64,000 nt of DNA, from assembly GCA_907163375.1 (NCBI GenBank), contig CAJQUW010003459.1, positions 15,001 to 79,000 on the forward strand, read 5' to 3'. Positions 1-14,915 of the stretch are shown one piece after another. The stretch is from Prostheceraeus crozeri. Its lineage: Eukaryota; Platyhelminthes; Polycladida; Euryleptidae. The notes below the pieces were generated by a model. The model ran no database searches and had not been told where the DNA came from. It saw nothing but the letters and a program-made list of their open reading frames with translations. The position numbers and the translations under genes were made by a program. Position 1 is the stretch's first letter; the number at the start of each line of letters is the position of its first letter.

Positions 1-167
1 GATGAATGGCTGCATGGGAAACCGCACGCTAAGATTTTTGTCAACAGACCGACCCACCTGTGACAATAGACAGGAACAATCATCGCCCCTCACCGCGGTT
101 GCTGACCGCTCATCACAGGAGGCGGGGGAAAATATCCAACGGTGATGTAACTTGACACCCTGCCGGA

Positions 168-1210
168 TTGATGGCATCAGAGAATCTTCCTAATTGTGAA
201 GTGACAATCTTTCTTATAAAAGCTCTTGTTATTCATGCCTTCATCAAATGTGAGAGTCTGACGAAGATTAAATCGAAAATTTACTCAACAGAGTATTTTT
301 ATTTTATACCCGCAAGGCTATTAGCACAAATCAACTCCATTATTCAAACTCGGGTATGGCCAACGTATTTAGAAATTTATTGAACAGTCTATTTGGTAAG
401 ACGATGGAGGATGTTAGAAAGCGCGTAAACTACAAACTAGTTAATGATGATCAAAAGTATCACAAATTGACCTCATCACCTCTATTCATCGATAGAGACA
501 TAATCGATGAGGATCTTGTAGGTATTAAAATGATAAAATCTGAAGTTGAGTTGTGCAAACCCATCTATATTGGTCAAGCTGTTCTAGATTACTCCAAGCT
601 TGAAATGTATCAACTCTTCTATAAAATACTAAAACCGTGTCCTCTCGTAAAAGAGGTTCGTTTGTTGGGTGGTGATACAGATAGTTTCTTTTTAGGTATT
701 ACCACTCAAAAAGATTTAAATTTCAATGAAGTAGGAAAATCTTTAGAAAGATATTTTGATACATCAAATTATCCTGCTGATCATCCACTCTACTCCATCA
801 AAAATAAGGCAAAACTTGGCTGCTTTAAGGATGAGACAGCAGGGAAGGAAATAGATGAAATGATTCTCCTCCGTCCAAAAATGTATTCTATGAAATTAAA
901 GGATAGCGACGATAGTATTAAGCGTGCTAAAGGCATATCAAGATCATTGGTCTCTAACATGAAACATAAGAATTTCAGGAAAGCCTATAGAAATAAAAAT
1001 ATAACGTTTGTCAATATGACAATCTTAAAATCTAAGTCGCATGAGATCAAAACTCATACTTTTAGGAAACGGGCGCTTTCAGCATGGGAGGATAAGAGGT
1101 GCTGGTTAGAACACAACATATCTCTTCCACATGGACATCCTGACACAAACATACCACCACCCAAAAGAATTAAACTCACACTACCACATTCAGGAGACGT
1201 CTTAGCATAA
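168..1210 (+). pseudogene. POLB: Polinton DNA polymerase B, C-terminal fragment with a frameshift
   Basis: Protein-primed type B DNA polymerase that would replicate the element. The main reading frame (356-1210, 284 aa) starts at polymerase motif B (NLLNSLFGKT, residues 7-16) and contains motif C as GGDTDS (residues 105-110), followed by the thumb region and a basic C-terminal tail. Lines similar to PIYIGQAVLDYSKL just before motif C are typical of Polinton polymerases. Sequence in a different frame (168 to about 352) reads plausibly as the stretch just upstream of motif B, so a one-base indel in the G run near 351-354 probably separates them. Exonuclease motifs, terminal protein region and palm motif A are missing; a full Polinton PolB exceeds 1000 aa. 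Positions 1-167 do not look like polymerase, so the gene is truncated rather than merely cut by the window edge. It runs convergently towards the minus-strand structural genes. Confidence 0.82.
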
Positions 1211-1421
1211 TCATCCTTAACTTAGTATTTTGATGTTGATTTCTGTAGATAAACATTGTTGTTTTATGTATCGCATGAGATTGTTTTTTTTTTTTCCTTG
1301 TGAATATGTGTCCACATCTGTACATTCCCCATGTGATGACTTTTCCACTGAAAGACATTTTTCCTATCCCTGTATATTTCCACCCTTCACGAAGTAAAAA
1401 GACTTTTTGTATATAACAATG

Positions 1422-1506
1422 TTTATTGAAGTGCGCTCATGTATATATTTTCAGTGGATGTTGTATAAAGTCTATTCCTTCACATTCATGTACATATTTC
1501 AATAAA
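1422..1506. terminator. Convergent polyadenylation signals between PolB and structural gene
   Basis: An AATAAA hexamer lies on the plus strand at 1501-1506, downstream of the polymerase fragment. Another lies on the minus strand at 1422-1427, downstream of the structural gene ending at 1522. The two transcripts would overlap tail to tail. Seen as hexamers only; use is inferred. Confidence 0.45.
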
Positions 1507-1521
1507 CATATCACAATGACT

Positions 1522-3072
1522 TCACTTTGTTTTCCGAAACACTAACGTTATGAGGGATTTAGTATCTTTCACATGGATGCACTCTTGTAAACCATTGGTA
1601 ATTTTGATAGCAATAGAGGGTATAGTTTGTTTGACGACGGGATGATAGAAAATAGATTCAAACATCTTCTCGACTATTCCATATGAAGCGTCTTTATCAT
1701 GAATGAAATCACGTAAAATGTATTCTTTTTTCTCACCAACAGAAATAGGTAGAATCAAATCACTTTGAATGTAAAGGTGCTGTTCATGTTTATCAAGTGT
1801 CATTGGTGTTTCTATACCAATCGTATGCGCAGCAGCAAACACAGTTTGTAGCATTGAAAAACCAAAGAGTTTTTTCAAATTTTTACTCAATTGACATTGA
1901 ATGTCATCACCCAGTTTCAGAACAACGCGTTGATTTTCAATTGAAAACGAAATGTGGTGTGTCTTTACATCATATTTACTTTTCATCACATGCTTCAACT
2001 TCTGTTGTATATAAGGATTTACTACATGAATGAAGCTTTCAACTGTATGATATAGACGCGGCATTATATTGATAGCAACTTTAGATTCTTCATAAGACTG
2101 GTAAATTTTCTTGATGCGATCGCCATAGATGTCCACCCACCATTCATCATTAACTGAATCAGCTTTAGTGTGATATTCATGAGAAGCATACACCACACCG
2201 CTTCCAATAATAGGTGTATAATGTCTTACAAAATGACGCAAGGTTGGAGAGAAATAAACTGTAAGTTTGTCATTATATTTCTGAATAACCAACTTATTTT
2301 TGTCCGCCATAATTTTCTCTCCATACTTCTTACCCACAGTCTCATTCCATCGTTTTACTAACTCAATAAGTGATAAAGGTTGAACACCACGCTTTTTCAA
2401 AATGATGCGTTCTTCGCATTCTACAACATCTTCATCAAATATTTTAAATCTATAATGAAATTTGTTGATTCGATTTGAATAAACTTTTCTAACATTTGCA
2501 GTAGCAATTGACGTTAGATGTAGTCCATGACCAAAACCGAGATGCGGATAGAATTCACTATCCAACCTCAGCGTAAGACCTTTAGTAAAAGAATGAAAGC
2601 GGAGGAACTGTCTCCCACTCCAATGATAGATAGTAAACTCATAAGCTTTCTGATTTTTATTCTTCATGATGGAAGTATTACCACTGTTGAATGCCTTAAT
2701 AATTTTCTCATTCCCAAATGGCTCATAAGAATCTGATTTTATCTGAATCCATTCATAGTTCCACTTTCCATCTGATGTTAAATTGTATGGGAACTGAAAT
2801 GCATTATTCATCGTTATTCCATCATGGGTGCGAGGAGTCAATATCATTTCTTCCAAATCATTCACATTCTGAATATTGCTATCATAGCAAATACTAGAAA
2901 CGCCAACCTCCCATTCACCTTCTAAATGCAGTGGGCGATTTAATTCTACTCGATAGTCTGATGGTTTATTTTTGGGAAATTTATTCATAGAAGCATTACT
3001 GGGCAAGTAGATTAGAAACGAGTCCTTATTTTCACTTTCCATATTATTCACATTGGAAAAATATATTAGCAT
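1522..3072 (-). CDS. Polinton structural-type protein A (LPSN/GEWEVG family)
   Basis: Protein of 516 aa, or 506 aa if translation starts at the second Met (codon at 3042), which aligns better with its neighbour. The N-terminus has LIYLPSNASMNKFPKNKP followed by LEGEWEVGVSSICY, a signature I know from uncharacterised proteins of invertebrate Polintons. The adjacent gene at 3083-4501 has the same layout, so the two are tandem paralogues with an 11-base gap. Their size, position beside capsid genes and beta-rich composition suggest a virion component such as a vertex, spike or fibre protein; that is inference. No signal peptide or membrane segment is obvious. The reading frame is intact. Confidence 0.7.
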   Translation of the reverse strand: MLIYFSNVNNMESENKDSFLIYLPSNASMNKFPKNKPSDYRVELNRPLHLEGEWEVGVSSICYDSNIQNVNDLEEMILTPRTHDGITMNNAFQFPYNLTSDGKWNYEWIQIKSDSYEPFGNEKIIKAFNSGNTSIMKNKNQKAYEFTIYHWSGRQFLRFHSFTKGLTLRLDSEFYPHLGFGHGLHLTSIATANVRKVYSNRINKFHYRFKIFDEDVVECEERIILKKRGVQPLSLIELVKRWNETVGKKYGEKIMADKNKLVIQKYNDKLTVYFSPTLRHFVRHYTPIIGSGVVYASHEYHTKADSVNDEWWVDIYGDRIKKIYQSYEESKVAINIMPRLYHTVESFIHVVNPYIQQKLKHVMKSKYDVKTHHISFSIENQRVVLKLGDDIQCQLSKNLKKLFGFSMLQTVFAAAHTIGIETPMTLDKHEQHLYIQSDLILPISVGEKKEYILRDFIHDKDASYGIVEKMFESIFYHPVVKQTIPSIAIKITNGLQECIHVKDTKSLITLVFRKTK

Positions 3073-3082
3073 ACGTTTTGCA

Positions 3083-4501
3083 TTAACTCTTCATTCGGAA
3101 ATGGAGTGTGATACTTGTCACAGCATCTTTATGAAAAGGAATCAACGCACCAGCATCGTCATAAATGGCAATATCAATTTGTGGGATGTAGTTTGATTTC
3201 AGCTTTGTATAATGCACTTTCTTGAAAGTATGCTCAGATAAAATACTGCAGCTCTTTGGCTGGTATGGTATCATTGCTAGCAATGGAGCTTCAACATCTC
3301 CCACACGTACATCTTCACCAATATTGGAATATATCTGAAAATAGTTAATACGACGCGATAGCGACATGTCTGCGCTAGCTTTGGTTACAGTACCACTTTT
3401 AAAGATATTTTGGTCAAAACCCAAAATGTCCATTAGAGTTTTATCCATAATTAGTTCAATACCTTTTCCACTTATAGTGAGAGACAAAGTACCTTCTTTT
3501 TCAGAAAATGAAATATGTTGCTCATTAATCACTTCATTTAAATAATCTACAACCAATTTAACCGAAGTAATAATGCGAGGCATCAACACTCTTGTTTCAT
3601 GTAAGAAACCACCAAAAGGCTCTACACACTTTCTGTATAAAGATACGGCCCATTCTGTATCAAATTGATTTGGCCTTTCACATGGTAAATGTTGCATATC
3701 AGATTTTCCATGAACAGCTGCAGAACGATGTCGTAAGAACTGATGAAAATCTTTTGAACAAACTAATACTAGATCATCATCATTTAATTTGCTTATTGCA
3801 ATATGATTAGATGATTTGATATAAGTCAATGTTGCCACTTGTTTACCATCAACTCGAAGGAGATAATTAAATTTCTTCAATAATGTTTCAGGAGTCATGT
3901 TTGTCTTTCTTGGCTTAATCACAATCTTCTTCACCAACGTCTTCTCATTTCTTGGAATAAGATCTACATAATAAGCTTCCTCTCGATATATTAACTGTTT
4001 ATGACCACTTATGTGGTAATTAACGTTAAAATTATCATAGCTTGTTAAGGCGCTAGCGAGGTAGCCTAAATCATTTCTTAAACTTGGACTTAAACCAACA
4101 ATCCAATCTTTCTCAACTACATGATGTACATAATTATAATCATCATTGTGCGGAGTAAATTGGACAATATGTTTACACGCTTTATTCAAGAAATCATATA
4201 TAAACTTTTTACATGATAAGAGATCTTTCTTTGACCACTGTGGAATGTATACTCGGCACCCCTTTTCACATTGATAAGCAGCTGTACGCCTCATATTAAT
4301 AGTCATCACCTCATGATCAAAAGTATAGACACAGTTGCTATAAACAAGTTGAGTGACACCCACTTCCCAATTCCCATTTAGCTGTTGTGCATGATCAATG
4401 GGAGTAGAAAAGAGTGCGGCTCGATTACTAGTAAATCTCTTTGTAGCCGCATTGCTAAGCAAAATATGATAAAACGACATTTTTATATTGCTAATCTGCA
4501 A
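3083..4501 (-). CDS. Polinton structural-type protein B, paralogue of protein A
   Basis: Protein of 472 aa; the Met at codon 4480 (sequence MSFYHILLSNAATKRF) is the likelier start because it matches the start of the neighbouring paralogue. It shares the N-terminal block with LNGNWEVGVTQLVY. Both proteins also carry a later similar block (KDFHQFLRH here, SPTLRHFVRH in protein A), so homology appears to run along the whole length. Function is unknown; a virion surface role is inferred from context. The start codon lies only 14 to 35 bases from the plus-strand PC4-like gene at 4516, so both must be driven from a very compact bidirectional region. Confidence 0.7.
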   Translation of the reverse strand: MQISNIKMSFYHILLSNAATKRFTSNRAALFSTPIDHAQQLNGNWEVGVTQLVYSNCVYTFDHEVMTINMRRTAAYQCEKGCRVYIPQWSKKDLLSCKKFIYDFLNKACKHIVQFTPHNDDYNYVHHVVEKDWIVGLSPSLRNDLGYLASALTSYDNFNVNYHISGHKQLIYREEAYYVDLIPRNEKTLVKKIVIKPRKTNMTPETLLKKFNYLLRVDGKQVATLTYIKSSNHIAISKLNDDDLVLVCSKDFHQFLRHRSAAVHGKSDMQHLPCERPNQFDTEWAVSLYRKCVEPFGGFLHETRVLMPRIITSVKLVVDYLNEVINEQHISFSEKEGTLSLTISGKGIELIMDKTLMDILGFDQNIFKSGTVTKASADMSLSRRINYFQIYSNIGEDVRVGDVEAPLLAMIPYQPKSCSILSEHTFKKVHYTKLKSNYIPQIDIAIYDDAGALIPFHKDAVTSITLHFRMKS

Positions 4502-4515
4502 CTTTGCATAACATC

Positions 4516-4865
4516 ATGAAGACTTGGATTTTGGACTCTCTACAATATATCAGAGTTGATCGTGATGGAAACGTACATTTCAAAAATTCTCATGGTCATA
4601 CATCAAGAGGTATTACATTAACATGGCGACAATTTGTCAACCTCAATGATATCATGAGGAATATTTTGAAACATTAAGATTCATCTCCTTGGGTGATCAA
4701 GTTTGGCTTCAACATTACAGAAATGAAATTCAAATCTACCATTCTCATTCCGCAAACTGTTTCTCATTTCGCAAATACAATTGGGAGAAGTATAGAAGAT
4801 ACATACATCGCTCCATCATGACATTTATTCGTCGTGAGTTCATCGCCCTACTATGCAAATCTTAA
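4516..4865 (+). pseudogene. PC4-like protein, copy 1, frameshifted
   Basis: Starts at an ATG at 4516 and reads 53 codons to a stop at 4675-4677. The homologous second half continues in another frame to a stop at 4863-4865. The intact tandem paralogue at 4888 shows that these are two halves of one gene (matching blocks LDSLQ, RDGNVHFK, then VWLQHYRNEIQIYH and NWEKYRR). The pattern of a beta strand pair with a GNVHFK-type turn followed by ITLTWRQFVNL resembles the PC4/Sub1 single-strand DNA binding fold, and the second half looks like a degenerate second repeat of it. A single indel near 4670 broke the gene, or is a sequence error. Confidence 0.55.
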
Positions 4866-4887
4866 TCAGATATGATTACCACGCACC

Positions 4888-5538
4888 ATGAGTTGGAAAT
4901 TAGATTCCCTACAACGTATTGAAACGGATCATGATCGAAACGTCTATTTCAAAGATTCAACTGGAAATGTGAGAAGAGAGTTTGCTTTATCTTATCGTCA
5001 TTTTCAATCTCTACATCATATCATGAAGGACTTGAAATACTTCTATATGAAAAGACATTCACGTATTGGAAATCGCATCTGGCTGCGCGTCAACAATCGG
5101 CGAATTCAACTCTATCATTCCCAACTTCATACTAACTTCACATTTCATCAAGGTAGTTGGGAAAAGTATAAAAGGAAGGTACATCGCTCAATTTACTCAT
5201 TCTTTCATCATGAAGCGCCATCGCTACACCATCGTCAACATTCTCCGTCGCTTCAGACTCTACACCAAAATCGATCTCACAACATTACGCCAACAGCTTC
5301 CAAACAGCAAGTATTACCCGGGCCGTCCTCAAATGTTAGTGGTGAAGATGAACAATTCACGGAATCTTCAACTCTTCCCAAATGGGACTGTACAGATTCT
5401 CGGCGCCCTTTCTCATTCATCGGCGCAGTCAATGCGCTTAGAGCTACAAAGACTACTACGTCGGATATGGAAGAGGGAGAGGTGTGTGATGTCGAATCTG
5501 ACTGTGGACAATATGGTGATCTCTACTCAATTGAGTGA
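4888..5538 (+). CDS. PC4-like protein, copy 2
   Basis: Protein of 216 aa. Residues 1-105 match the broken upstream copy and contain two apparent PC4-like repeats: one around NVYFKDSTGN and the FALSYRHFQSL helix, a second around IWLRVNNRRIQLYHS and GSWEKYKRKVHRSI. Known PC4/Sub1 family members bind single-stranded or melted DNA and act as transcription or replication cofactors; assignment here rests on pattern similarity only. The last ~110 residues overlap the TBP-like gene in another frame, are Ser/His/Gln-rich and have no counterpart in copy 1, so the C-terminus may be an overprinted tail. It sits 22 bases after copy 1 on the same strand. Confidence 0.55.
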   Translation: MSWKLDSLQRIETDHDRNVYFKDSTGNVRREFALSYRHFQSLHHIMKDLKYFYMKRHSRIGNRIWLRVNNRRIQLYHSQLHTNFTFHQGSWEKYKRKVHRSIYSFFHHEAPSLHHRQHSPSLQTLHQNRSHNITPTASKQQVLPGPSSNVSGEDEQFTESSTLPKWDCTDSRRPFSFIGAVNALRATKTTTSDMEEGEVCDVESDCGQYGDLYSIE

Positions 5539-5755
5539 CAGTCTATCATTTTTGAAGATTCGTACCAGCAGTTACAGTTTGTGTTATGAACCCGAACTTT
5601 TTCCTGCAGCTCTCATTAGTTGTTGGTTGCCTGTGCATGTGGCAATCTTTCATAATAGTAAAGTGATCATTACTGGACTAAAATCTCATGAACAAGCAAA
5701 TATGATCCTAGACTATCTCATTGAGTATGTACGTACCCAGCGGATTGTAAAATAA
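5210..5755 (+). CDS. TATA-binding-protein-like protein with two TBP repeats
   Basis: The frame is open from 5066, but the Met at 5210 is the probable start because similarity to TBP begins directly after it (181 aa). Repeat 1 (about residues 8-87) has IVNIL, YYPGRP and LFPNGTVQILGALS. Repeat 2 (about 97-176) has VDNMVIS, YEPELFPA (126-133), VAIFHNS and KVIITG (151-156). These follow the saddle-fold TBP pattern, and YEPELFP is nearly identical to the cellular motif. Of the four DNA-kinking phenylalanine positions, three are kept (F56, F131, F147); the first in repeat 1 is replaced by Pro. The expected role is binding promoter TATA elements for viral transcription, which is inference. It overlaps the PC4-like gene by 329 bases and its stop codon overlaps an AATAAA signal. 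A host TBP would be far more conserved and would carry introns. Confidence 0.75.
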   Translation: MKRHRYTIVNILRRFRLYTKIDLTTLRQQLPNSKYYPGRPQMLVVKMNNSRNLQLFPNGTVQILGALSHSSAQSMRLELQRLLRRIWKRERCVMSNLTVDNMVISTQLSDSLSFLKIRTSSYSLCYEPELFPAALISCWLPVHVAIFHNSKVIITGLKSHEQANMILDYLIEYVRTQRIVK

Positions 5756-5787
5756 AAAACAATTTTTTCCAACATGATGTTTTTATT
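5751..5787. terminator. Tail-to-tail polyadenylation signals overlapping stop codons
   Basis: AATAAA on the plus strand at 5751-5756 overlaps the TAA of the TBP-like gene. AATAAA on the minus strand at 5782-5787 overlaps the TAA of the protease gene. The two converging genes are separated by only 27 bases. Confidence 0.55.
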
Positions 5788-6243
5788 TCAAATCATGATA
5801 GAACTTACAAATCATTTTTTCATTAGAGGATGGATTACATGAAAAGTTTTGAATAATAGATGCAAATCGAGATACATGTAAACGTTTTAAGATGAAGTAC
5901 AGTACAAAAGCACCACACGTTGATGAAAGTGGATGTTGTAGTATGCGTTCATTCGCTGATATTGACGCGTATGTTTTCTCAACCACTGCTGTGTTGGTAT
6001 ATTTGGAGGTTGAGCAAGAGAGTCAAATAGTTCACCACGTCGGTCTTCTCCAATAAAGATCGCTTTCCAATGCTCACCGCCTAAATTCTGTGAATGAGTG
6101 TTTAGCACAATAAAGATGGGATAGTGATTTACTGCAGGTGGTAAGGTATCGAGTGAATAGACATTATCGAAAGCTTTCAACGTCGCTTCGTCTGCATTAC
6201 GCTGCACTTTAGTCTTAATATCGTCAGCAGTCAACCAACTCAT
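5783..6243 (-). pseudogene. PRO: Adenovirus-type cysteine protease (adenain-like), frameshifted
   Basis: Maturation protease of Polintons and adenoviruses, which cleaves virion precursors. The first part (6243-5887) contains the catalytic His in GGEHWKAIF (H58) and the acidic residue in FDSLAQPP (D74). The catalytic Cys lies in a second frame (5986-5783) in QHPLSSTCGAFVLYF, the expected Q...S..CG pattern. An indel between about 5940 and 5985 joins the frames. Apart from that the gene has normal length (about 150 aa) and all catalytic residues. Its ATG overlaps the stop codon of the capsid gene (TAATG), so the two are probably co-transcribed. Frameshift, assembly error or programmed shift cannot be told apart here; the first two are likelier. 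Confidence 0.8.
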
Positions 6244-7520
6244 TAACGATTATACTGAAGAATCACGTCACGATACTTTGTAATTTCAATATTTGAATCG
6301 AAGACTGCATAAATTAATACATTGATCGTCTCAGGTAGTGTTCTTTTGAACGTCAAATCCAAACGAATATTATGAGGCACGTTCGCTTGACGATAGGGTG
6401 CACTAATATCGCTGTCAGCAGTTAAATCAAATGCATAAATAGTATATCCACTCTTAAACTCTTTCATAGTAAGTCCGTTGGTGTCATCCGTATTGTAAAA
6501 GCCAAAGACATCCATAAAATCAACATAACTGCGCATAAATTGATCTGAAGCAAAATCTGGTTTGTAGGGTGGACCAGGATGACTCACACCATTTACACGT
6601 AAAGCAATTTCACTTAACTGATTGTGTTTAAAATTGAAAGGATTCTTCTTTATATTACCATTAAATGCATCATTTTCAACCATTGCCACCATGAGGAGCT
6701 TCGGTGCTTCCGATGGAAAGAGGCCATCTTTCATGAAACTCTTTTGATCTTTCGGAATTGTAAAGGTGAGAAGCTTTGTATGCTGAATGGGGTAAATGGC
6801 ATTTTGGCGGTTAAGGCCTTCAGCATGCCCTCTAATGACACTTGGATTCGGTACTACTCGACGAATGTAAAGTGCAATATCTTCCACATGAATTCTAAAA
6901 TTGTCAACTTTAGCAAATGCATTCAGCGCAAATTCAGGCTTATTCAATGTCAGCTTGAGTCGCATGCTGGTATTACACAGTAAAAACTTTGACTGTCTAA
7001 AGAAGTCTAAATTCAGCGGACCATATAGCTGACATACTCTACTATCTTTAATCATAGCAGATCGCTTTACAAAGCCACTGTTTGTTTCAACATCAAATTT
7101 TCCTGCTTCATCTCTGTACCATCCCATGGCTTCCATATGACTTTTTTGTGCTGCTGGATGAAACTGTGATACATGATTGAAATATGATTTATAGGGATAA
7201 TCGCTTTGACCACCTTCCACTTGCTGCTCTCCAATCGTTAGAGAAACATCACGAAGTAATGTAGTCAATGGTAAATTGTTCAGTCCAACTTTATGTGCAT
7301 CGTCAATAGCAGTTCCATCTGCTTGCTGAATTCTAAACCTCAAATCAAGCATCGCATAACTCAAATCTATGTAGTCATCACTACCACCAGGAATAACAAA
7401 TTCAATGGGGCCAGCATTCTCAGCTGTTCGAGGATGATAATCTACAATACTTGAACTAAGAATATCTGTCTGTATGGCTTGTTGATCGAACAAACAAAAA
7501 CCGGAAGTTTTACACTCCAT
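6243..7520 (-). CDS. MCP: Polinton capsid protein (F54H12.2-like, probable double jelly-roll major capsid protein)
   Basis: Intact 425-aa frame. It has the order of blocks seen in the widespread uncharacterised protein F54H12.2-like family: GPIEFVIPGG then DYIDLSYAMLDLRFRI near the N-terminus, YPYKSYFNHV with a following Ala-rich WYRDEAG block in the middle, ALYIRRVVPNPSVI, KNPFNFKHNQLSEIALRVNG, and a C-terminal SGYTIYAFDLTAD and LPETINVLIYAVFDS. This family is encoded by Polintons and adintoviruses and forms icosahedral capsids. Length fits a double jelly-roll capsid protein, though I cannot fully exclude the minor (penton) protein. Flanked by the protease and a basic virion protein, a standard Polinton arrangement. 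Confidence 0.75.
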   Translation of the reverse strand: MECKTSGFCLFDQQAIQTDILSSSIVDYHPRTAENAGPIEFVIPGGSDDYIDLSYAMLDLRFRIQQADGTAIDDAHKVGLNNLPLTTLLRDVSLTIGEQQVEGGQSDYPYKSYFNHVSQFHPAAQKSHMEAMGWYRDEAGKFDVETNSGFVKRSAMIKDSRVCQLYGPLNLDFFRQSKFLLCNTSMRLKLTLNKPEFALNAFAKVDNFRIHVEDIALYIRRVVPNPSVIRGHAEGLNRQNAIYPIQHTKLLTFTIPKDQKSFMKDGLFPSEAPKLLMVAMVENDAFNGNIKKNPFNFKHNQLSEIALRVNGVSHPGPPYKPDFASDQFMRSYVDFMDVFGFYNTDDTNGLTMKEFKSGYTIYAFDLTADSDISAPYRQANVPHNIRLDLTFKRTLPETINVLIYAVFDSNIEITKYRDVILQYNR

Positions 7521-7522
7521 GA

Positions 7523-7978
7523 TTAGAAGTTATAGCAGCGTCGTCGTTTAGCGCCTGATGAATGATTAGAGCCTCTGCGACGTTTGCGTGAATGCCTTTT
7601 GACTGAAGATCGCACCTTACCAGCTCCGCGATGTTTCCTCCTTCCTTTATTCATTCGTTTAGGTGATTTCTTTCCTTGAGTAACACCAGCAATGGTCTGC
7701 TTCAATGTTTTTAAACCGCGTTCCTTCCCACGATTCAACAAACTGCTCTTGAAACTTCTACCTCTGGAAAGATCACTAGCAACATCACCAGCAAAGCCAA
7801 CGGCATTACTTAAAACATTTCGTTTTAAAGATCTACCGACATTGGATATGAGAGGTGCTACAACAGATTTCAGTGCACCAAGTATGCTACCTCCACGTTG
7901 GCGGCGAGCACCGATGTAAATTTGTCCTCCGCCACTTACATAGGAGGGTCGTGAATAAAATGAGGCAGTTGGATTCAT
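7523..7978 (-). CDS. Small basic virion protein precursor (adenovirus pVI/pX-like)
   Basis: Protein of 151 aa. The N-terminal third is Gly-rich with an amphipathic hydrophobic segment (ILGALKSVVAPLISNVG, about residues 32-48). The C-terminus is extremely basic (RKHRGAGK, HSRKRRRG, GAKRRRC). RQRGGSI and SGGGQI resemble the GG-type cleavage sites used by adenain-like proteases. Composition and placement two bases upstream of the capsid gene suggest a capsid-interior, membrane-lytic or DNA-condensing peptide precursor. Functional label is inference from composition and context. Confidence 0.6.
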   Translation of the reverse strand: MNPTASFYSRPSYVSGGGQIYIGARRQRGGSILGALKSVVAPLISNVGRSLKRNVLSNAVGFAGDVASDLSRGRSFKSSLLNRGKERGLKTLKQTIAGVTQGKKSPKRMNKGRRKHRGAGKVRSSVKRHSRKRRRGSNHSSGAKRRRCYNF

Positions 7979-8019
7979 AGCTCAAACCCTAAACATTGTT
8001 AGTTACAACTTTGCATGAA

Positions 8020-9240
8020 TCACTGTCGATCACTTAGATGAAAGATGTCGGCACGACGCATCCAAGAGTTCATACTTGAAGGATAACCAGCCCATTTAAC
8101 AAGACACCATTCTTCACCTTGCCGTTTTTTACATCGAATGATTTTCTCTACCAAATATGTTTCACTTTCAGTGACTACCTCAATCTCATCGCGGTAAAAG
8201 CTACCCTCAATTTCTTCATTATCGTAATCTTTCAACTTGTAGGTGGTCGGAGAGTCTTTTTGATTAATCCTTGATACTGTAAATACCTCCTCTGTCCAAT
8301 TCGGAAGGTACCCTTTAGCAAAAACACTTTTCACTTTTGAGATACGAACTTTATCGCCAATTTTCACATCACTTTTCACATGAGTGCGTTTACGTTGGAA
8401 TGATTCGCGCACTTTATCTACATTGTCAGCATTTACATCTACTGGTCTGAGTCCAATAGAACGATGGATAGAGTGATTGTAGGCATGGAGTGTATCTTGT
8501 AGAACCTTTGTCCAATTTTGTGTCAAGTTGGCAGTAAAATGTCGCCACAAGCGATTTTTTAATGTGCGATTAAAACGTTCAACGAGTGCAGCTTTATAAG
8601 CGCTCTTTACACTAAACAACTCAATGTCATGCCTCTCAAATAATCTTGTCACATGCTGATTTTCAAACTCTTTTCCTTGATCACTCTGAATTCTTTTTGG
8701 AATGCGACCTTCTCGAAAAATTGTTTGGAATGCTTTTGCTACTCCTTTCCCTTCTTTAGTTTTTAAAGGTTGAGCCCACGCATAACGCGAGAAAATATCA
8801 ATGACGGTTAAAATAAAATTATTGCCCGAGTTATGTTTTGAAATGGAGGCAACATCGCACAAATCTGCTTGCCACTGTTCATCGATGTCATGAACAATAT
8901 AATGGCGGGTGCGGTACTTCTTTTTCGCTTGTTTGTGGAGTGTATAGGTAGCCTGACCCTTTAACCATCGTTTCACTTGTGATTGTGGAAGACCACTCGC
9001 TTTTGATAATTTCTTGATAGATGCAAATCCTGCCGGATGTTTTACATCATAATAGATTGACTTCAAACGTTCAGTCGATGACGGCTGACTCTTTTTCCTC
9101 CTTCTCATCTTTTTTCTTTCTTGCCTTTCTACATTTACAACAACTGCAGCATTTAGCTTTAGCGGTTTTGCGATCGTGTTCACATTGCTTAGGGGTTTCA
9201 TTATGAGAGCTGGCGCAGCAAGTGCAAGTGACAACGACAT
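8020..9240 (-). CDS. INT: Retroviral-type integrase with C-terminal chromodomain
   Basis: Integrase that would join Polinton ends to the host genome. The catalytic triad is visible as D126 (WQADLCDV), D187 (QSDQGKEF) and E221 (LVERFNR), with 33 residues between the last two. An N-terminal block (IYYDVKHPAGF, LHKQAKKKYR) is typical of Polinton integrases, as is the SH3-like IGDKVRISK block around residue 315. Residues about 349-400 form a chromodomain (YLVEKIIRCKK, WCLVKWAGYPSSMNSW), expected to read histone marks for target choice. The first ~44 residues are in the frame overlapping the Cys-rich gene and look non-integrase, so the Met at codon 9108 is a better start. The frame is intact. Confidence 0.9.
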   Translation of the reverse strand: MSLSLALAAPALIMKPLSNVNTIAKPLKLNAAVVVNVERQERKKMRRRKKSQPSSTERLKSIYYDVKHPAGFASIKKLSKASGLPQSQVKRWLKGQATYTLHKQAKKKYRTRHYIVHDIDEQWQADLCDVASISKHNSGNNFILTVIDIFSRYAWAQPLKTKEGKGVAKAFQTIFREGRIPKRIQSDQGKEFENQHVTRLFERHDIELFSVKSAYKAALVERFNRTLKNRLWRHFTANLTQNWTKVLQDTLHAYNHSIHRSIGLRPVDVNADNVDKVRESFQRKRTHVKSDVKIGDKVRISKVKSVFAKGYLPNWTEEVFTVSRINQKDSPTTYKLKDYDNEEIEGSFYRDEIEVVTESETYLVEKIIRCKKRQGEEWCLVKWAGYPSSMNSWMRRADIFHLSDRQ

Positions 9241-9286
9241 TCACCTCTGGCGGCTCATTACATGGCAAGCAACACATCTGCTTCAT
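9071..9286 (-). CDS. Small Cys-rich protein overlapping the integrase start
   Basis: Protein of 71 aa starting 1 base after the upstream gene stops. It contains clustered cysteines (CCLPC, CTCC, CCSCCKC) and a Lys/Glu-rich C-terminal tail. It overlaps the first part of the integrase frame; if integrase starts at 9108 the overlap shrinks to about 38 bases. Cysteine spacing suggests a small metal-binding protein, but no family is recognised. It could also be a chance frame; tight packing against its neighbour favours a real gene. Confidence 0.45.
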   Translation of the reverse strand: MKQMCCLPCNEPPEVNVVVTCTCCASSHNETPKQCEHDRKTAKAKCCSCCKCRKARKKKDEKEEKESAVID

Positions 9287-9287
9287 A

Positions 9288-9980
9288 TTAATAGTCTGAG
9301 AACATGTATTTCCTAGGAGGAGCTGTTTTACGTTTTCCTTTTACCAGTTTTAGTGGCGATGTAGATCTACGTCGAGTTCTTCCTCTTGTTTGCTTAGTGA
9401 GTGTGGGAGGGGATGTAGCAGGTGACGTCTTAAACCAATTTGTTGGCATTTTCATCGCCTGAAGCATTGGAGTAGTAGCCACTGTTGAATCAAGTTCTTT
9501 CAATGTCTCATTATTTAAAGCAAATTTTGGCACATTATGCTTTTTCAATAGTTTAAGAAAGTATGACCAACCAGGTGGAACATAGCCCTGACGGCGCTTT
9601 CTACGTGTCGCATACTGAATCAAGTCTTCATAACGTGAAGCATCAATCACTTTATTTTCATCTGTAATGATTTCTCCTCTATCATTTACATTGAGATGGG
9701 GTTCAATACTGTTGAAAAGAGATATGGCATGTGCGCGAGATGCTAAAGGTGTAGCAGTCGATACAGAGTCACGCATCTTATTCTTCAAGTTTTTCAATTG
9801 CTCAACAGTTTCCGATTGTAATAATACAGCACGATGTGGATCTTTGATGTGAACATTTTGCTGATAATCTATTTCTTTCCTATACATTTGATTTGCAAGA
9901 GGTTGCTTTACTTGCTGCATGGCAGTCAATTGTACATATTCATCCTGAGGAATAACAATCATGCGAGAATAAGAACTCAT
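9288..9980 (-). CDS. Polinton protein of unknown function
   Basis: Protein of 230 aa. Not recognised with certainty. It starts with a hydrophobic MIVIPQDEYVQL block, then a charged helical region (about 50-75) likely to form a coiled coil, a central region with YVPPGWSYFLKLLKKHNVP, and a basic Ser/Thr/Pro-rich tail (TRGRTRRRST, KGKRKTAPPRKY). Similar proteins with an opening MxxVP...Y block are common in invertebrate Polintons. Its ATG overlaps the stop codon of the ATPase gene by four bases (ATGA), suggesting coupled expression. A virion core or packaging role is possible. Confidence 0.6.
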   Translation of the reverse strand: MSSYSRMIVIPQDEYVQLTAMQQVKQPLANQMYRKEIDYQQNVHIKDPHRAVLLQSETVEQLKNLKNKMRDSVSTATPLASRAHAISLFNSIEPHLNVNDRGEIITDENKVIDASRYEDLIQYATRRKRRQGYVPPGWSYFLKLLKKHNVPKFALNNETLKELDSTVATTPMLQAMKMPTNWFKTSPATSPPTLTKQTRGRTRRRSTSPLKLVKGKRKTAPPRKYMFSDY

Positions 9981-10642
9981 AGTTTGTAGATAATCATGGG
10001 AGTTTTCAAAATATCACTTCGAAATCTAAATTCTTCCGGACACTCTTGCGTAAAGTCAATGAATAAGTAACCGTATGGTTTTTCAGTAGCTGCTTGAAAA
10101 ATTTCAATTAAGGCTTTTGATCCTCTGGGTGCAACTTGTCGCGCTAAAATTTCAAATTGACTTTTATCTCGCGGATTCTTGAAAATAGCATAATAGTGTG
10201 TATTCAGGTTTCGTGTACGAGCTTCTTTTCCATCAGGAAACAAATTTTGTGTAATATAGATGATAAAACACCTTTTATGGTGTGCTGCGCGAGTGAACAT
10301 ATCTGTAACATCTTTTGAATTCTTACTTTCTTTTAATAAATCATCCAATACAACAACATCATTAGACTGAAGTTTATCCACTGGAATAATTCCTTCATGT
10401 CGAATAAAGTTGCGACTTTGCAATTCCTGAAACAGCGACGGTTGATAAATACCATAACACCAAATCACTCGATTGATAGGTTCCTTAAACAACTCCCTTC
10501 TTTTATCCAATAAATTCAGCGTGAAAACAGTTTTACCTGCATGAGATGGACCTGATACAGTCAGAACTTTATCACATTGAAGTCTGAAATCCATTTTATT
10601 ACTTTGAGACTCAACATTTGCATAATTAACGCTTAGAGCCAA
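9977..10642 (-). CDS. ATP: FtsK/HerA-type genome packaging ATPase
   Basis: P-loop ATPase that would pump the genome into the capsid. Walker A is GPSHAGKT (residues 31-38); Walker B is VVVLDD (96-101); a downstream TQN motif (IYITQNLFPDG) fits the sensor region of the A32-like packaging ATPases. Length (221 aa) is normal for Polintons and the frame is intact. It overlaps the small basic gene upstream by 17 bases and the following gene by four. Confidence 0.88.
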   Translation of the reverse strand: MALSVNYANVESQSNKMDFRLQCDKVLTVSGPSHAGKTVFTLNLLDKRRELFKEPINRVIWCYGIYQPSLFQELQSRNFIRHEGIIPVDKLQSNDVVVLDDLLKESKNSKDVTDMFTRAAHHKRCFIIYITQNLFPDGKEARTRNLNTHYYAIFKNPRDKSQFEILARQVAPRGSKALIEIFQAATEKPYGYLFIDFTQECPEEFRFRSDILKTPMIIYKL

Positions 10643-10982
10643 AGATATTTCCCAATAGGTTGCCCACGGCAGGAGCTATCATTGGAAGTATTGCTGAAAG
10701 GAAACCGCCCTTTTGTGTTAGAGTTTTCCTCTTTCTTTGAAGGGCGACTTTAGGATTGGAGATGAAACGCAATTTCGTAGCATATCGCTTAAGTAACTTT
10801 CGTTGTTTTGGTGCTAATTTCTTCGTCCTCAACTTCCTCACATGAGAAATAATTTCACAAATGAATTTATCGTTAGCATGTCGTATAGCATTGTATCGCT
10901 GATTTGCTTTCATTCGTCGGAGAGCTTGAATGGCTGAAGAAAACTTTTGACTTTTACGTTTCGTCATTTTACGTTTCGCCAT
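10626..10982 (-). CDS. Small basic protein with hydrophobic C-terminal peptide (virion precursor)
   Basis: Protein of 118 aa. The first 85 residues are strongly basic and helical. After LTQKGGF (about residues 89-95) follows a hydrophobic Gly/Ala/Pro-rich tail (LSAILPMIAPAVGNLLG). The QKGG-F site looks like an adenain-type cleavage site, and the tail like a membrane-active or core peptide. Genes of this type sit next to the packaging ATPase in many Polintons. The reading is from composition plus context. Confidence 0.6.
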   Translation of the reverse strand: MAKRKMTKRKSQKFSSAIQALRRMKANQRYNAIRHANDKFICEIISHVRKLRTKKLAPKQRKLLKRYATKLRFISNPKVALQRKRKTLTQKGGFLSAILPMIAPAVGNLLGNIFGSKR

Positions 10983-11033
10983 TTTCCGTGTTAGTCTTTG
11001 CTAAAACCTATCTTTACCACATTTGCATAGGTA

Positions 11034-11363
11034 CTAACTATTGCGACATAAGTGACACTCGAAATGAGCAATGTCACAGTGGTTACATTGGCAAAGTTGA
11101 ATGCAATTACGTATGAAACAGCGTTGACAAAAAGCATGCTTACATCTCTTGAAGATGCGCTTTTCATTTCCATCCTTTCGCTTACATACATCGCAACACA
11201 TAGTTTCACCGTTACTGATGTCTATAGCAAGTCTTTTTGAAGATATGAATTTGCTAGCCTTTTCTAAATAATAGACGCATGTACAGAAGGAATATACTTC
11301 GAGAGTGAGCAGACATAGCTCGAAAACCAGTTGTGCTACAATCAAGTACCACTGCATTTTCAA
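11034..11363 (-). CDS. Membrane-anchored RING-type zinc finger protein
   Basis: Protein of 109 aa. Residues about 5-32 are hydrophobic and could anchor it in a membrane. A RING-like pattern follows: C57-x2-C60-x13-C74-x-H76-x2-C79-x2-C82-x10-C93-x2-C96, with a further Cys pair at 103 and 106. RING proteins usually act as E3 ubiquitin ligases; viral ones often target host defence factors, but here that is inference. The start codon overlaps the stop of the preceding gene (ATGA). A shorter RING-like protein with the same first-half spacing is encoded at 12441-12689. Confidence 0.6.
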   Translation of the reverse strand: MKMQWYLIVAQLVFELCLLTLEVYSFCTCVYYLEKASKFISSKRLAIDISNGETMCCDVCKRKDGNEKRIFKRCKHAFCQRCFIRNCIQLCQCNHCDIAHFECHLCRNS

Positions 11364-11770
11364 TTTTTCTTTATGGAAAGTTGAATGTGAATATCTGAAA
11401 TCGCTTCAATCACTAGACTGCTACCATGATGGTTAAATGCGTTAAGACGTTCAGCAATTTTTATCATATGTCTTTTAAAAAATTCTTCGGGGTGATCTAC
11501 CACTTCCATTGAATAAGAAGCAAAATGGAAAGAGCGACTTTCCACCTCTTCCTTTCCAAAATGACTAAACTTAATTTTCGCAACTAATCGCGCCATGACA
11601 ATGCTATCAGAGAATGTATTCATTAACTCTAGAAATAGAGTGCTAGCATCATCTACCACTGCTTCGATGTCGGTCTCATCTTTATGAAAATTTATCACAT
11701 AATCTTGAACAGCTCCTTTTAAACTTTGCCTATGAAAACGTAATGTTCCGCAGTCGTTTGAGAAAGACAT
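11360..11770 (-). CDS. Polinton protein of unknown function (LKGAVQDY family)
   Basis: Protein of 136 aa. The block LKGAVQDYVINFHKDETD followed by a helix and an Ile/Leu-rich beta segment (MARLVAKIKFSHF), ending with EAISDIHIQLS, resembles a domain I associate with N-terminal regions of replication-related proteins in arthropod Polintons. The resemblance is from memory of the family pattern and is weak. No catalytic motif is evident. It overlaps the RING gene by four bases. Confidence 0.5.
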   Translation of the reverse strand: MSFSNDCGTLRFHRQSLKGAVQDYVINFHKDETDIEAVVDDASTLFLELMNTFSDSIVMARLVAKIKFSHFGKEEVESRSFHFASYSMEVVDHPEEFFKRHMIKIAERLNAFNHHGSSLVIEAISDIHIQLSIKKN

Positions 11771-12048
11771 GATCGCCCTTTAACTAACCCATCCATTGCA
11801 TGAAAACAACAACTCTTCTCATAGTAACATTTATTGAATAACGGTAACAAGCATGCATTATAAATCAATGGTTTGAAAGAGATAAAATAGATACAGCTGA
11901 TAACTATCATACAGCGAGCAATGATAACCATACAGGACTTTGGCAGTGTTGAGGTAAGGAGGAAAGAAGCATTGGTTATGAACGTAGCTACTACAACGAA
12001 CAGACAAAATAGGAACACACAAATCCTTAAAACGTTTCGTGACTTCAT
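11719..12048 (-). CDS. Possible small two-pass membrane protein, alternative frame
   Basis: A 109-aa frame with two hydrophobic segments (ICVFLFCLFVVVATFI at about residues 9-24 and MVIIARCMIVISCIYFI at about 40-56). It overlaps the 3' end of the 12388-11858 frame and the start of the next gene, so it may be a chance frame. Its N-terminal hydrophobic segment is reminiscent of the neighbouring membrane RING protein. Confidence 0.25.
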   Translation of the reverse strand: MKSRNVLRICVFLFCLFVVVATFITNASFLLTSTLPKSCMVIIARCMIVISCIYFISFKPLIYNACLLPLFNKCYYEKSCCFHAMDGLVKGRSCLSQTTAEHYVFIGKV

Positions 12049-12388
12049 GATAATGTTGATTCACTCTACTATCCCAAGGCGGGAGCAAAATATCATCAAT
12101 GATTAGATTGGGAAATACTTTCCTCTCCTTACCAGGATTATTACAAAAGATGCGTATAACATTGAAAGCAGCTAACCATCGTTTAAAGTCAATAAGAAGA
12201 GCACTCTCACAAGAAAAGCCATAGTCTTGCAAATATTTCAGATTAAGTCCATGAATGTGTTTTCTCGCCCATTGATCAACATTGGGATCACAGTTGGCAT
12301 GTTGATGATAGACACTAACAATCTGATATGTCCAATTGTTCATAGCAATAGCACTGAGCTCCTGTACAGGTTCACCCTCACAATCCAT
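11858..12388 (-). CDS. Polinton protein of unknown function, possibly DnaQ-like
   Basis: Protein of 176 aa opening with MDCEGEPVQELSAIAM. A D-x-E pair in a first beta strand is how DEDD exonucleases begin, and Polinton proteins of this layout exist, but the remaining acidic residues of that family are not clearly visible. The C-terminal ~50 residues overlap a hydrophobic alternative frame and may not be native. Function left open. Confidence 0.4.
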   Translation of the reverse strand: MDCEGEPVQELSAIAMNNWTYQIVSVYHQHANCDPNVDQWARKHIHGLNLKYLQDYGFSCESALLIDFKRWLAAFNVIRIFCNNPGKERKVFPNLIIDDILLPPWDSRVNQHYHEVTKRFKDLCVPILSVRCSSYVHNQCFFPPYLNTAKVLYGYHCSLYDSYQLYLFYLFQTIDL

Positions 12389-12440
12389 AAAAATGATGAT
12401 AGAAGCCTAAAACGGAAATTTACACATCTAAGGAAGCGTT

Positions 12441-12689
12441 CTATAACATATTACAAAATGAAGAATTACATCGATGCTTTTCACGACAAAATACACAAAT
12501 GATATGATGGCAACGAAGAAGTAAAATGTATCTAATAAGACCACGTCTACGACACTCAAAGCACATAAGCGAATTGTCATAGGGTAGAGTTAGGAAAGGA
12601 CTAGTAATTCTCCTTCTTTGATTTGCGTTTTGATGTAGCATTCTTCTCCGACTTGCGCTTCGTACCACTGCTGTTAAGGATTTGATCAA
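12441..12689 (-). CDS. Short RING-like zinc finger protein
   Basis: An 82-aa frame; only the C-terminal ~41 residues (from a Met codon at 12566) carry the signal: C43-x2-C46-x13-C60-x-H62-x2-C65-x2-C68-x5-C74-x4-C79. The spacing of the first six ligands is identical to the membrane RING protein at 11034-11363, so the two are probably related. The N-terminal part overlaps the basic tail of the gene ending at 12601, making a start at 12566 attractive; a spliced start is another option. Confidence 0.45.
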   Translation of the reverse strand: MIKSLTAVVRSASRRRMLHQNANQRRRITSPFLTLPYDNSLMCFECRRRGLIRYILLLRCHHIICVFCREKHRCNSSFCNML

Positions 12690-13376
12690 TTATGTCGTCC
12701 ACGTTGGGTGGTTTCGGAATATATAAAATGGATTCCATATGCATGGAGAGAGAGGCTATTTTATTATCCTTGTGTCGACCATAATATAGCCCATTCACTT
12801 TGAAAAGGATATCCCAAGTACCTTCTCCGAGCTCATCACATCTGATGGGTATTGAATGATCTCCATCCTTCTTATAGTAAGTACACCAATGTGATACCGG
12901 TAGGCAAATGTGATTACCATCCCAAATCTTTCTATAGGGAGTATCCTTGTCATCTCTCGCCTTCCACTCTTGAGCAAGAGGAGTAGGAATGTCCATATTT
13001 AATGTCACGTACTCCTCAATAATATCAAGTTGGTGGCGAATGTACGGACTCACGGGGATCAGTATGTAGTCCCCATACTGATTGTGCATTATCTTGACAT
13101 CCGTGGAAGGGAGCATTCCCGTTTGGAGTACTACGCTATGATCATCATAACGCAAGGCTTGTTTAAATTTACGCTGTAGCGGTGTAGGATTATGTACCTT
13201 GGATGTTTCTTCCACTGGCCTCAGTTGTAGATGATCTGACCGTAGCGAACCTTGTAACGTTTGACCGCCATTTTGTCCTACTAGTGCAGCAGATGGAGTA
13301 GATGCCTGAAAATGAAAAAAGATTGTATTAAGTTTACGTTCAAGGGAGGAGAGGGAGGGAAGTAGCGACTTACCAT
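12601..13376 (-). CDS. Spliced Polinton gene of unknown function with an ATG-only first coding exon
   Basis: The long frame (204 aa counted from a GTG at 13215) has no suitable ATG but stays open upstream to 13305, where a splice acceptor lies (polypyrimidine run ending in TTTTCAG). A 68-base intron (13306-13373) separates it from ATG at 13374-13376, directly followed by the donor GTAAGT. Splicing gives an in-frame protein of about 235 aa. The protein has no recognised domain; it contains GDYILIPVSPYIRHQL and PYRKIWDGNHICLPVSHW blocks and a basic tail (KRKSEKN, KRKSKKE) likely to act as a nuclear localisation signal. A TATA box lies about 100 bases upstream. Position at the element end suggests an early regulatory gene; that is inference. 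Confidence 0.6.
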
Positions 13377-13475
13377 TTTAGTTGGGTAATAGAACAGGGA
13401 ACTAGAGAGAGAGAAAATGTGCGTCCGTCACTCGTGTGATTCAACGATGGAATGATTCTCACTGTGGAAGGCTCG

Positions 13476-13484
13476 CTATTTATA
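13476..13484 (-). promoter_or_regulatory. TATA box of the rightmost Polinton gene
   Basis: The minus strand reads TATAAATAG here. Initiation about 30 bases downstream (near 13450) would give a leader of roughly 75 bases before the ATG at 13376. A TATA-driven promoter is notable because the element encodes a TBP-like protein. Confidence 0.5.
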
Positions 13485-13540
13485 AAGAAATGCTTGATTC
13501 TCATTGGATGATGATCCTCATTGGACAATAACATCAAGCT

Positions 13541-14398
13541 GATTCCAAATCTGGTCTCTGTTTTCCAATCCGATGCTTCGTTTTGAAGCTAGAGTCCAAA
13601 ACGTCCCAAATTCTAACTCTGTCGTTTTTCGCCAATGTCCCAAAATCTTAAATGGCGTCTCACATCTAAACGAAGACAGATAGGAACAAGCCGATTCTTT
13701 CACTGAATTTGTCTCACTCTTAGCTTTCAAACGAGCTATCGCACGACAAAATCCGTCCACTGGAAGCCAAAATCGAAGCAAGCTGTCCAGAGGGGGGGGG
13801 GACGTCAGTGAAAATTTTTTCTCTCCGATTTCGCTGGAAACATCCTTCCTAACCCAAAATTTCACGTAGATTCCGAATCTGGCCTCCGTTTTCTCATCCG
13901 ATGCTTCGTTTGGGCGCTACACACCAAAACATCCCAAATTCTAACTCTGTCGTTTTTTCGAAAAATGTTGAAAATTTTTTCTCTCCGATTGACTTGAAAC
14001 TCACTATACAGATAAAGAATTTCACGCTGATTCCAAATCTGAAATCCGTTTTCCAATCCGATGCTTCGTTTTGAAGCTACAGCCCAAAACGTCCCAAATT
14101 CTAACTCTGTCGTTTTTCACCAATGTCCCAAAATCTTAAATGGCGTCTCACATCTAAACGAAGACAGATAGGAACAAGCCGATTCTTTCACTGAATTTGT
14201 CTCACTCTTAGCTTTCAAACGAGCTATCGCACGACAAAATCCGTCCACTAGAAGCCAAAATCGAAGCAAGCTGTGTAGGGGGGGGGGGGACGTCAGCCGA
14301 AAATTTTTTCTCTCCGATTTCGCTGGAAACATCCTTCCTAACCCAAAATTTCACGTAGATTCCGAATCTGGACTCCGTTTTCTCATCCGAACACTCCT
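13541..14398. repeat. Tandem ~329-bp repeats with a short intervening unit
   Basis: Unit 1 (13541-13868) and unit 3 (14029-14357) are nearly identical over ~329 bases. Unit 2 (13869-14028, 160 bases) is an internally deleted version, and a fourth partial unit begins at 14358. Each full unit contains a run of nine to eleven G followed by ACGTCAG. The repeats lie just outside the last Polinton gene and may belong to its terminal region; the matching left terminus is not in the window, so this is unproven. Open frames across this region are repeat artefacts. Confidence 0.8.
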
Positions 14399-14915
14399 TC
14401 CACTCGAAACAACCCATTTACAACCCAACATTCAGCAGATTGCACCAAAAACATCACACACTATAGCCTCAACACTAATCCTGGCGGTCGCCCAAGTCCA
14501 CCACGACACTCTATCGTTCCAGAGGGGGGGGGGACTCAGACCCGAAGCACCACGGCGGCCGACCACGACACTCTGCCGTTCCAGGGGGGGGCGCCGGTCG
14601 AGTGTTTGTCATTTGCTTACTACTATCACACACCTCTCATAAACACCAACCTTCAATCTGAATATTTATATTTTGTTTGAACGCATAAATTGTTAATGAA
14701 ATTTGTCAGATTGTACTTTCCCTTGTTTATATTCCTTATTGCATTTGTCACTTGTCAGTTGCCATTGACGATGGCACGTCATTCGTACTGAAACGCGTTG
14801 GACAATAAACTCAGTTCAACTGAATAATCTCTCTCATCGCCCAGACCATGATGCAGATTTTACACAATCTTGATGAATTTGTTGACTACAAGGGATGAAA
14901 ATGAATGATATTCAC
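14399..14915. other. Non-coding stretch with G-run repeats
   Basis: Two further copies of a short GC-rich module (CACGACACTCT, then CGTTCCAG and 7-9 G) occur near 14502-14531 and 14559-14591. Near 14771-14809 there is a GAAACGCGTTGGACAATAAA stretch of the kind often found beside Penelope elements. No coding exon is seen; the last HDHD2 exon was looked for and not found. Confidence 0.5.

Follow-up and report, generated by a model that had tools for sequence, protein, structure and literature searches.

A TATA-binding protein homolog carried by Polinton-type elements in the genome of the polyclad flatworm Prostheceraeus crozeri

In archaea and eukaryotes, the TATA-binding protein (TBP) marks where genes start, and in animals a divergent TBP paralog, TLF/TRF2, is also found. 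Polintons are small elements, with a typical size of perhaps 15-20 kb, that are frequently put close to the base of many eukaryotic DNA viruses. TBPs have been described in giant viruses and asfar-like viruses (PMC7221094) and in mirusviruses (PMC10132985). In the former source, most giant- and asfar-like-virus TBPs are reported to vary at the TFIIB contacts, with the first TFIIB-contact glutamate about 40% conserved, and to be accompanied by a viral TFIIB, which is present beside almost every one (PMC7221094). In addition, ORF24 of KSHV is described as a herpesvirus late-gene TBP mimic that acts at viral Pol II promoters with noncanonical DNA binding (PMC12529657). A search for TATA and TBP terms in a set of papers on Polintons or adintoviruses found TBP unmentioned, and in two papers that treat Polintons and the TATA-binding protein together, the TBP belongs to mirusviruses or mirusvirus-type elements. 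The first-pass annotation of the locus described here was aware of no described TBP in Polintons or adintoviruses, which agrees with the literature searched: no report was found there, most subscription journals lying outside it.

The window, i.e., the complete stretch of 64,000 nucleotides analyzed here, is part of P. crozeri contig CAJQUW010003459.1 (positions 15,001 to 79,000). It contains a TBP-like gene within an element whose features are given below; lineages I to III are groups of copies in the same genome.

356..1210, plus strand: C-terminal part of a gene taken to be DNA polymerase B by its GGDTDSFF motif; relatives in 18 of the 20 other loci fetched
1522..3072, minus strand: paralogous ORF 1, 516 aa, which may encode a minor capsid or penton protein
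3083..4480, minus strand: paralogous ORF 2, 465 aa from its ATG, which may likewise encode a minor capsid or penton protein
4516..4865, plus strand: tandem copy with a broken frame, similar by eye to the first (N-terminal) half of ORF A and directly upstream of it
4888..5538, plus strand: ORF A, 216 aa, of no known family, conserved in three lineages
5210..5755, plus strand: TBP-like gene, 181 aa, two TBP repeats (Pfam, PDB phmmer, family profile, model)
5887..6243, minus strand: protease candidate; the lineage II ortholog matches Pfam Peptidase_C48 (Ulp1)
6243..7520, minus strand: major capsid protein candidate; two of 39 aligned family members match Pfam DJR-like_dom
7523..7978, minus strand: basic Lys/Arg-rich ORF, 151 aa
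8020..9240, minus strand: retroviral-type integrase with chromodomain (rve 1.2e-10, Chromo 1.3e-6, both above cut-off)
9288..9980, minus strand: ORF of 230 aa with no assignment, adjoining the ATPase candidate
9977..10594, minus strand: packaging ATPase candidate (Pox_A32 E=0.022, under cut-off; start at an internal ATG)
10626..10982, minus strand: protein with a weak Adeno_PX match (E=0.0024, under cut-off)
13534..14531, no strand: repeat-rich right end of the element, border approximate; related units also in loci of other lineages

Like Polinton/Maverick elements and adintoviruses, this element family has a chromodomain integrase, an Ulp1-type protease (in lineage II) and a weak double-jelly-roll match among its capsid candidates; it differs from them in carrying a TBP, as the papers searched on those elements name none. 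Regarding the criteria for a Polinton, a retroviral-type integrase is found in the window and in lineage II (rve 1.4e-13), and an Ulp1/adenain-type protease in the lineage II ortholog (Peptidase_C48, 7.1e-5, 23.2 bits against a cut-off of 20.7); the window copy of the protease candidate gave no Peptidase_C48 match in Pfam. The DJR-like_dom matches in the capsid-candidate family are weak (best 5e-4), and the capsid candidate of the window matched neither DJR-like_dom nor any PDB entry. An 87% relative of this candidate, P0063, occurs in a record labelled as a Pseudomonadota genome bin, perhaps through animal contamination. The polymerase piece had no Pfam or PDB match. Paralogous ORFs 1 and 2 lie in tandem beside the TBP gene, and both lineage I and lineage II retain them. 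On the minus strand, at 12563 and 11195, the element has two small Cys/His motifs of RING-like type, and a relative of the first is found in locus L024 (7792-8064). The window copy of the element is probably not intact, since its polymerase frame is split to the left of the window by foreign sequence, with MANVFRNLL on both sides (L009). The break in the polymerase gene, with this repeated peptide at L009 and at window position 356, resembles the outcome of an insertion.

The first-pass annotation had placed at 5210..5755 a protein with two TBP-type repeats, the motifs YEPELFPA, KVIITG and LFPNGTVQILG, and three of the four DNA-intercalating phenylalanines. The frame indeed runs uninterrupted from an ATG at 5210 to a stop ending at 5755 (181 aa) and contains all three motifs, while F56, F131 and F147 are present and the first position is P40, a pattern that holds across the family. 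The profile search and structure prediction that had been suggested both came out for TBP. Pfam PF00352 matches the enclosing open frame (5066-5755) over two stretches with E=2e-20 (72.8 bits, cut-off 22.9) and the shorter piece 5276-5755 with E=8.2e-16. The best PDB match is the TBP of M. jannaschii (phmmer, E=2.8e-14), a profile of 34 TBP-family members gives E=3.6e-25, and NCBIfam TBP models give E-values down to 1.7e-19, under the curated cut-offs of those models. The predicted structure is a confident two-lobe saddle, i.e., the two-repeat TBP fold, with 19-27% identity to TBP chains in structural alignments (VIA-align 2), and its best named viral fold matches are giant-virus TBPs. By its sequence and its predicted fold, the element protein is thus a TBP homolog. 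Having three instead of the four Phe of canonical TBP, with Pro at the first position, weakens the label 'canonical TBP' but not the label 'TBP homolog'. No match for the protein was found in PHROGs, and searches of IMG/VR and GTDB contigs with the TBP, capsid, polymerase and integrase as queries gave no relatives.

Our main reading, to which we give a probability of about 0.7, is that the element encodes a genuine, long-established TBP that would act at element promoters together with host TFIIB. It is called genuine and long-established because of the homology, the two-lobe model, the presence in three lineages and in 60 database proteins that belong to the same family, and the kept DNA- and TFIIB-contact residues. 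Residues were counted in 81 family proteins, namely the 60 database relatives, the window protein and 20 further copies from this genome, and the columns were matched to yeast and human TBP residue numbers by what we assume to be the correct correspondence. Phe2 and Phe4 are Phe in all 81 proteins and Phe3 in 80 (one Cys), while the Phe1 position is Pro in 77 of the 78 proteins that cover it, Gln in one and Phe in none. Both Asn columns, which have a minor-groove role in TBP, are invariant (N10 in 68/68 covering proteins, N101 in 81/81). Each of the two TFIIB-contact glutamates (C.L3.2 and C.L3.4) is Glu in 80/81 proteins, with Asp in the remaining one; these contact roles are taken from PMC7221094. 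Cellular TBPs (PF00352; eukaryotes and archaea) and the element protein therefore have in common the saddle, three of the four Phe, the Asn columns and both TFIIB-contact Glu, and the element protein differs in its low identity, in the Pro at Phe1, in being encoded by a mobile element and in being partly overlapped by another gene. Giant-virus, asfar-like-virus and mirusvirus TBPs resemble it in that a virus-type element encodes a TBP. In contrast to most of the giant- and asfar-like-virus proteins in PMC7221094, the family keeps the host-type TFIIB contacts. Among the ORFs searched with Pfam, none matched TFIIB, with part of the element, where such a gene could still lie, extending beyond the window. 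With both contact glutamates kept, the family has the look of a partner of host TFIIB, contrary to what PMC7221094 reports for viral TBPs.

Kept TFIIB contacts together with a diverged N-lobe would also suit a decoy or inhibitor that titrates host TFIIB or occupies host promoters, depressing host transcription rather than driving element genes. For a pure TFIIB decoy, however, the three intercalating Phe and both Asn columns would be needless, and we consider this explanation improbable.

TBP genes were also searched for in the assembly (2.05 Gb). From a first look of 10,983, 150 candidates were scored with the Pfam TBP model, and all 150 match TBP; four rows fall within TBP and TLF-like genes that belong to the host (L001, L002) and that point to an animal. 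Only the best-scoring candidates were scored, so that the sample leans to intact copies, and among these the matched repeat is stop-free in 138 of the 146 non-host rows. Twenty of the 146 loci were fetched (the 21 best-scoring less one), and at all 20, other element genes were found by tblastn within ~5 kb of the TBP, a polymerase piece being the only one at L025 and L028. Lineage I comprises eight copies, with TBPs 93-97% identical to that of the window. In lineage II (L010, L011 and L013), the TBP is 42% and the capsid candidate 52-54% identical to the window. Lineage I and these three loci have the same neighborhood as far as genes are present, in the order polymerase, two paralogous ORFs, TBP, protease, capsid, basic ORF, integrase and then the ATPase-side genes; tblastn detected ORF A in lineage I and otherwise just in L011, at 30%. 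L015, which was grouped with lineage II, has diverged further (TBP 40%, capsid candidate 53%), and its two paralogous ORFs are turned. Lineage III consists of eight copies (L012, L014, L019, L023, L024, L025, L027 and L028) with 41-45% TBP identity, in which the TBP lies near a polymerase piece and, in six of the eight, at least one of three accessory ORFs is present. As to gene position, the TBP of the diverged lineage II occupies the site that it has in the window, and that of lineage III lies elsewhere. The proposed TBP homolog within a Polinton-type element thus stands on a strong profile match, a two-repeat saddle model and recurrence in other lineages. The finding is also wider than first proposed, since this animal genome has a family of such TBP genes, spread over several Polinton-type lineages.

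Capsid, protease, integrase and ATPase genes were not found in the eight lineage III loci or in two further flanks (L030, L031). These genes are either absent, farther off or too divergent for detection, and lineage III could be a capsid-less derivative. A TBP near the polymerase, with those four genes not seen in the fetched DNA, is what might be expected of an architectural protein that bends DNA when the element ends are replicated, integrated or packaged and is no transcription factor. DNA bending alone would leave the almost invariant TFIIB-contact glutamates unexplained, and this explanation also appears unlikely to us.

Stops are present in six of the 21 TBP copies (L029 is without ATG), and pN/pS among copies within lineages is 0.44-0.55, mildly below 1, as might be seen if a host TBP gene had been inserted by chance, or a pseudogene were decaying, without a role in the element; these figures also weigh against the main reading. 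Against an insertion or pseudogene, 15 of the 21 copies are stop-free, and lineages I and II share the position of the gene despite ~42% protein identity. A quick maximum-likelihood tree took in 66 family proteins, of which 10 come from this genome and 56 are database relatives, the four of the 60 that are shorter than 150 aa having been left out. A long branch (2.36 changes per column, SH-aLRT 100) separates the family in this tree from five cellular sequences, namely the TBP and TLF of the host, both as partial rows, and three further cellular TBPs. We therefore regard such an insertion or pseudogene as highly improbable. Recent capture of the TBP from this host does not fit the same branch, with partial host rows, and was rejected. 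Given the incomplete host rows, the long branches of three rows and the few cellular sequences, the tree does not name a donor of the gene. TLF/TRF2 and the element family are both divergent TBP-type proteins in animals, and an origin from the former was considered and rejected: the host TLF-like L002, a single partial row, carries Trp, His and Tyr at positions of conserved Phe in the family, and the family groups apart from it.

The Polinton setting of the family is seen for the copies in this genome and not for the 60 database relatives. Compared by eye with the 120 listed of 268 capsid relatives, none of the 60 TBP relatives is on a contig of matching length, so linkage in other genomes is unsupported; a TBP gene can be left uncalled, as P0182 illustrates. 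This database protein (JGI) is identical to ORF A, and no protein identical to the window TBP is among the database relatives listed. The overlap with ORF A could account for the TBP gene being passed over in gene calling. The two genes overlap by 329 nt in different frames, and the TBP frame continues for 217 nt past ORF A. When TBP codons were shuffled synonymously, ORF A stayed open that far in 1 of 20,000 shuffles (5e-5). In 18 of 21 cases (the window plus 20 copies), the overlap measures 308-341 nt, with P <= 0.001 for every one of them in 4,000 shuffles, and it is shorter, at 140-185 nt, in L013, L014 and L015 (P 0.009, 0.075 and 0.021); copies within a lineage are not independent, which makes these statistics worth about three independent cases. 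ORF A of lineages II and III has 23-28% identity to that of the window, and six aligned ORF A sequences have FSFxxA(V/M)xxL and, near the end, SIE in common. In the three lineages (L015 left out), synonymous change in TBP is lower inside than outside the overlap (0.029 vs 0.051, 0.029 vs 0.059 and 0.071 vs 0.088), which is weak support for dual coding because nonsynonymous change is also lower there (0.014 vs 0.023, 0.016 vs 0.033 and 0.033 vs 0.035). N-terminal extensions were seen by eye in nine of 12 TBP relatives inspected, and in seven of the nine, I-K stands 11-12 residues before the Met. Reading the end of the window ORF A in the other frame likewise gives I-K 11-12 residues before the TBP Met, and on this match the pairing of ORF A and TBP is probably present in distant relatives as well. 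Neither Pfam nor PDB gave a relative of ORF A, and its model is too poor for use (pLDDT 37.8). An impression of beta-beta-alpha repeats similar to those of PC4 had no profile backing, and a PC4/p15 coactivator was rejected as its identity, with no PC4 in Pfam matches up to E=5 in six of six members scanned. That ORF A would be the only true gene and the TBP frame a side effect of their overlap, as if a gene caller had chosen ORF A in P0182, can practically be dismissed in view of the TBP homology and fold, the extent of the TBP frame beyond ORF A and the conservation of both frames.

The first-pass annotation also saw a TATAAATAG promoter in the element, and this claim did not hold up. The sequence occurs once in window positions 1-13500, at 13484 on the minus strand, and was therefore rejected as a general element promoter. 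This single copy lies near the repeat-rich right end and ~270 nt ahead of where the last ORF starts, and it could serve that ORF. An open count of hexamers was made in the 70 nt before each ATG-started ORF of at least 90 aa from a mechanical ORF list, with random segments that were not matched to intergenic composition. ATGCAA precedes seven of 17 window ORFs at 11-46 nt from the ATG, which was equalled in 0 of 1000 random segment sets; ATGCAA(A) lies upstream of the ORFs starting at 3072, 4480, 4888, 7978, 10594, 10982 and 11770. In L011 (lineage II), AAGCAA precedes six of 12 ORFs (3 of 1000 random sets did as well), with four of the seven hits falling within an upstream ORF. No significant upstream hexamer was found in L010, L013, L016 and L022 (347, 630, 415 and 89 of 1000), and a plain count in L024, made without random sets, showed no such motif. 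The upstream motif differs between lineages and is a lead, not a promoter; this difference, the four copies without significance and the L011 hits inside an ORF weigh against the main reading. A more far-reaching reading is a private core-promoter system, in which a TBP with Pro for Phe would read boxes instead of TATA (ATGCAAA in one lineage, AAGCAA in another) and work with host TFIIB and a dual-coded ORF A partner. This is a tentative idea that we think has somewhat poor odds; if true, these would be, to our knowledge, the smallest DNA elements with their own TBP.

Under the main reading of a genuine element TBP, the protein would bind core promoters of the element itself through the minor groove during an active phase, and the three remaining Phe would bend the promoter DNA, which Pro in place of Phe1 could weaken. 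The glutamate pair of the C-lobe would recruit host TFIIB and hence host RNA polymerase II. The diverged N-lobe, with Pro for Phe1 and other changes, may alter the sequence accepted at one end and loosen control by host factors that grip this lobe, and ORF A would be a likely partner produced from the same locus. Promoter use and TFIIB recruitment are what we infer from the conserved residues; promoter recognition by the element's own TBP is plausible, and the kept TFIIB-contact residues strengthen it. The proposal is similar to that for KSHV ORF24, where a viral-type protein replaces TBP with host Pol II, and differs in that the element protein is a sequence-level homolog of full TBP whereas ORF24 is a mimic.

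TBPs were known from giant viruses and mirusviruses, and their presence in Polinton-type elements is new as far as the literature searched is concerned. The finding suggests that the element could set up its own promoters and not rely solely on those of its host. If this is true, a transposon of perhaps 15-20 kb with its own promoter-recognition factor and a host TFIIB interface would be a natural orthogonal promoter system in animals, and it would become testable how far a TBP can diverge and yet nucleate transcription, and whether Polintons have a switchable late or lytic phase.
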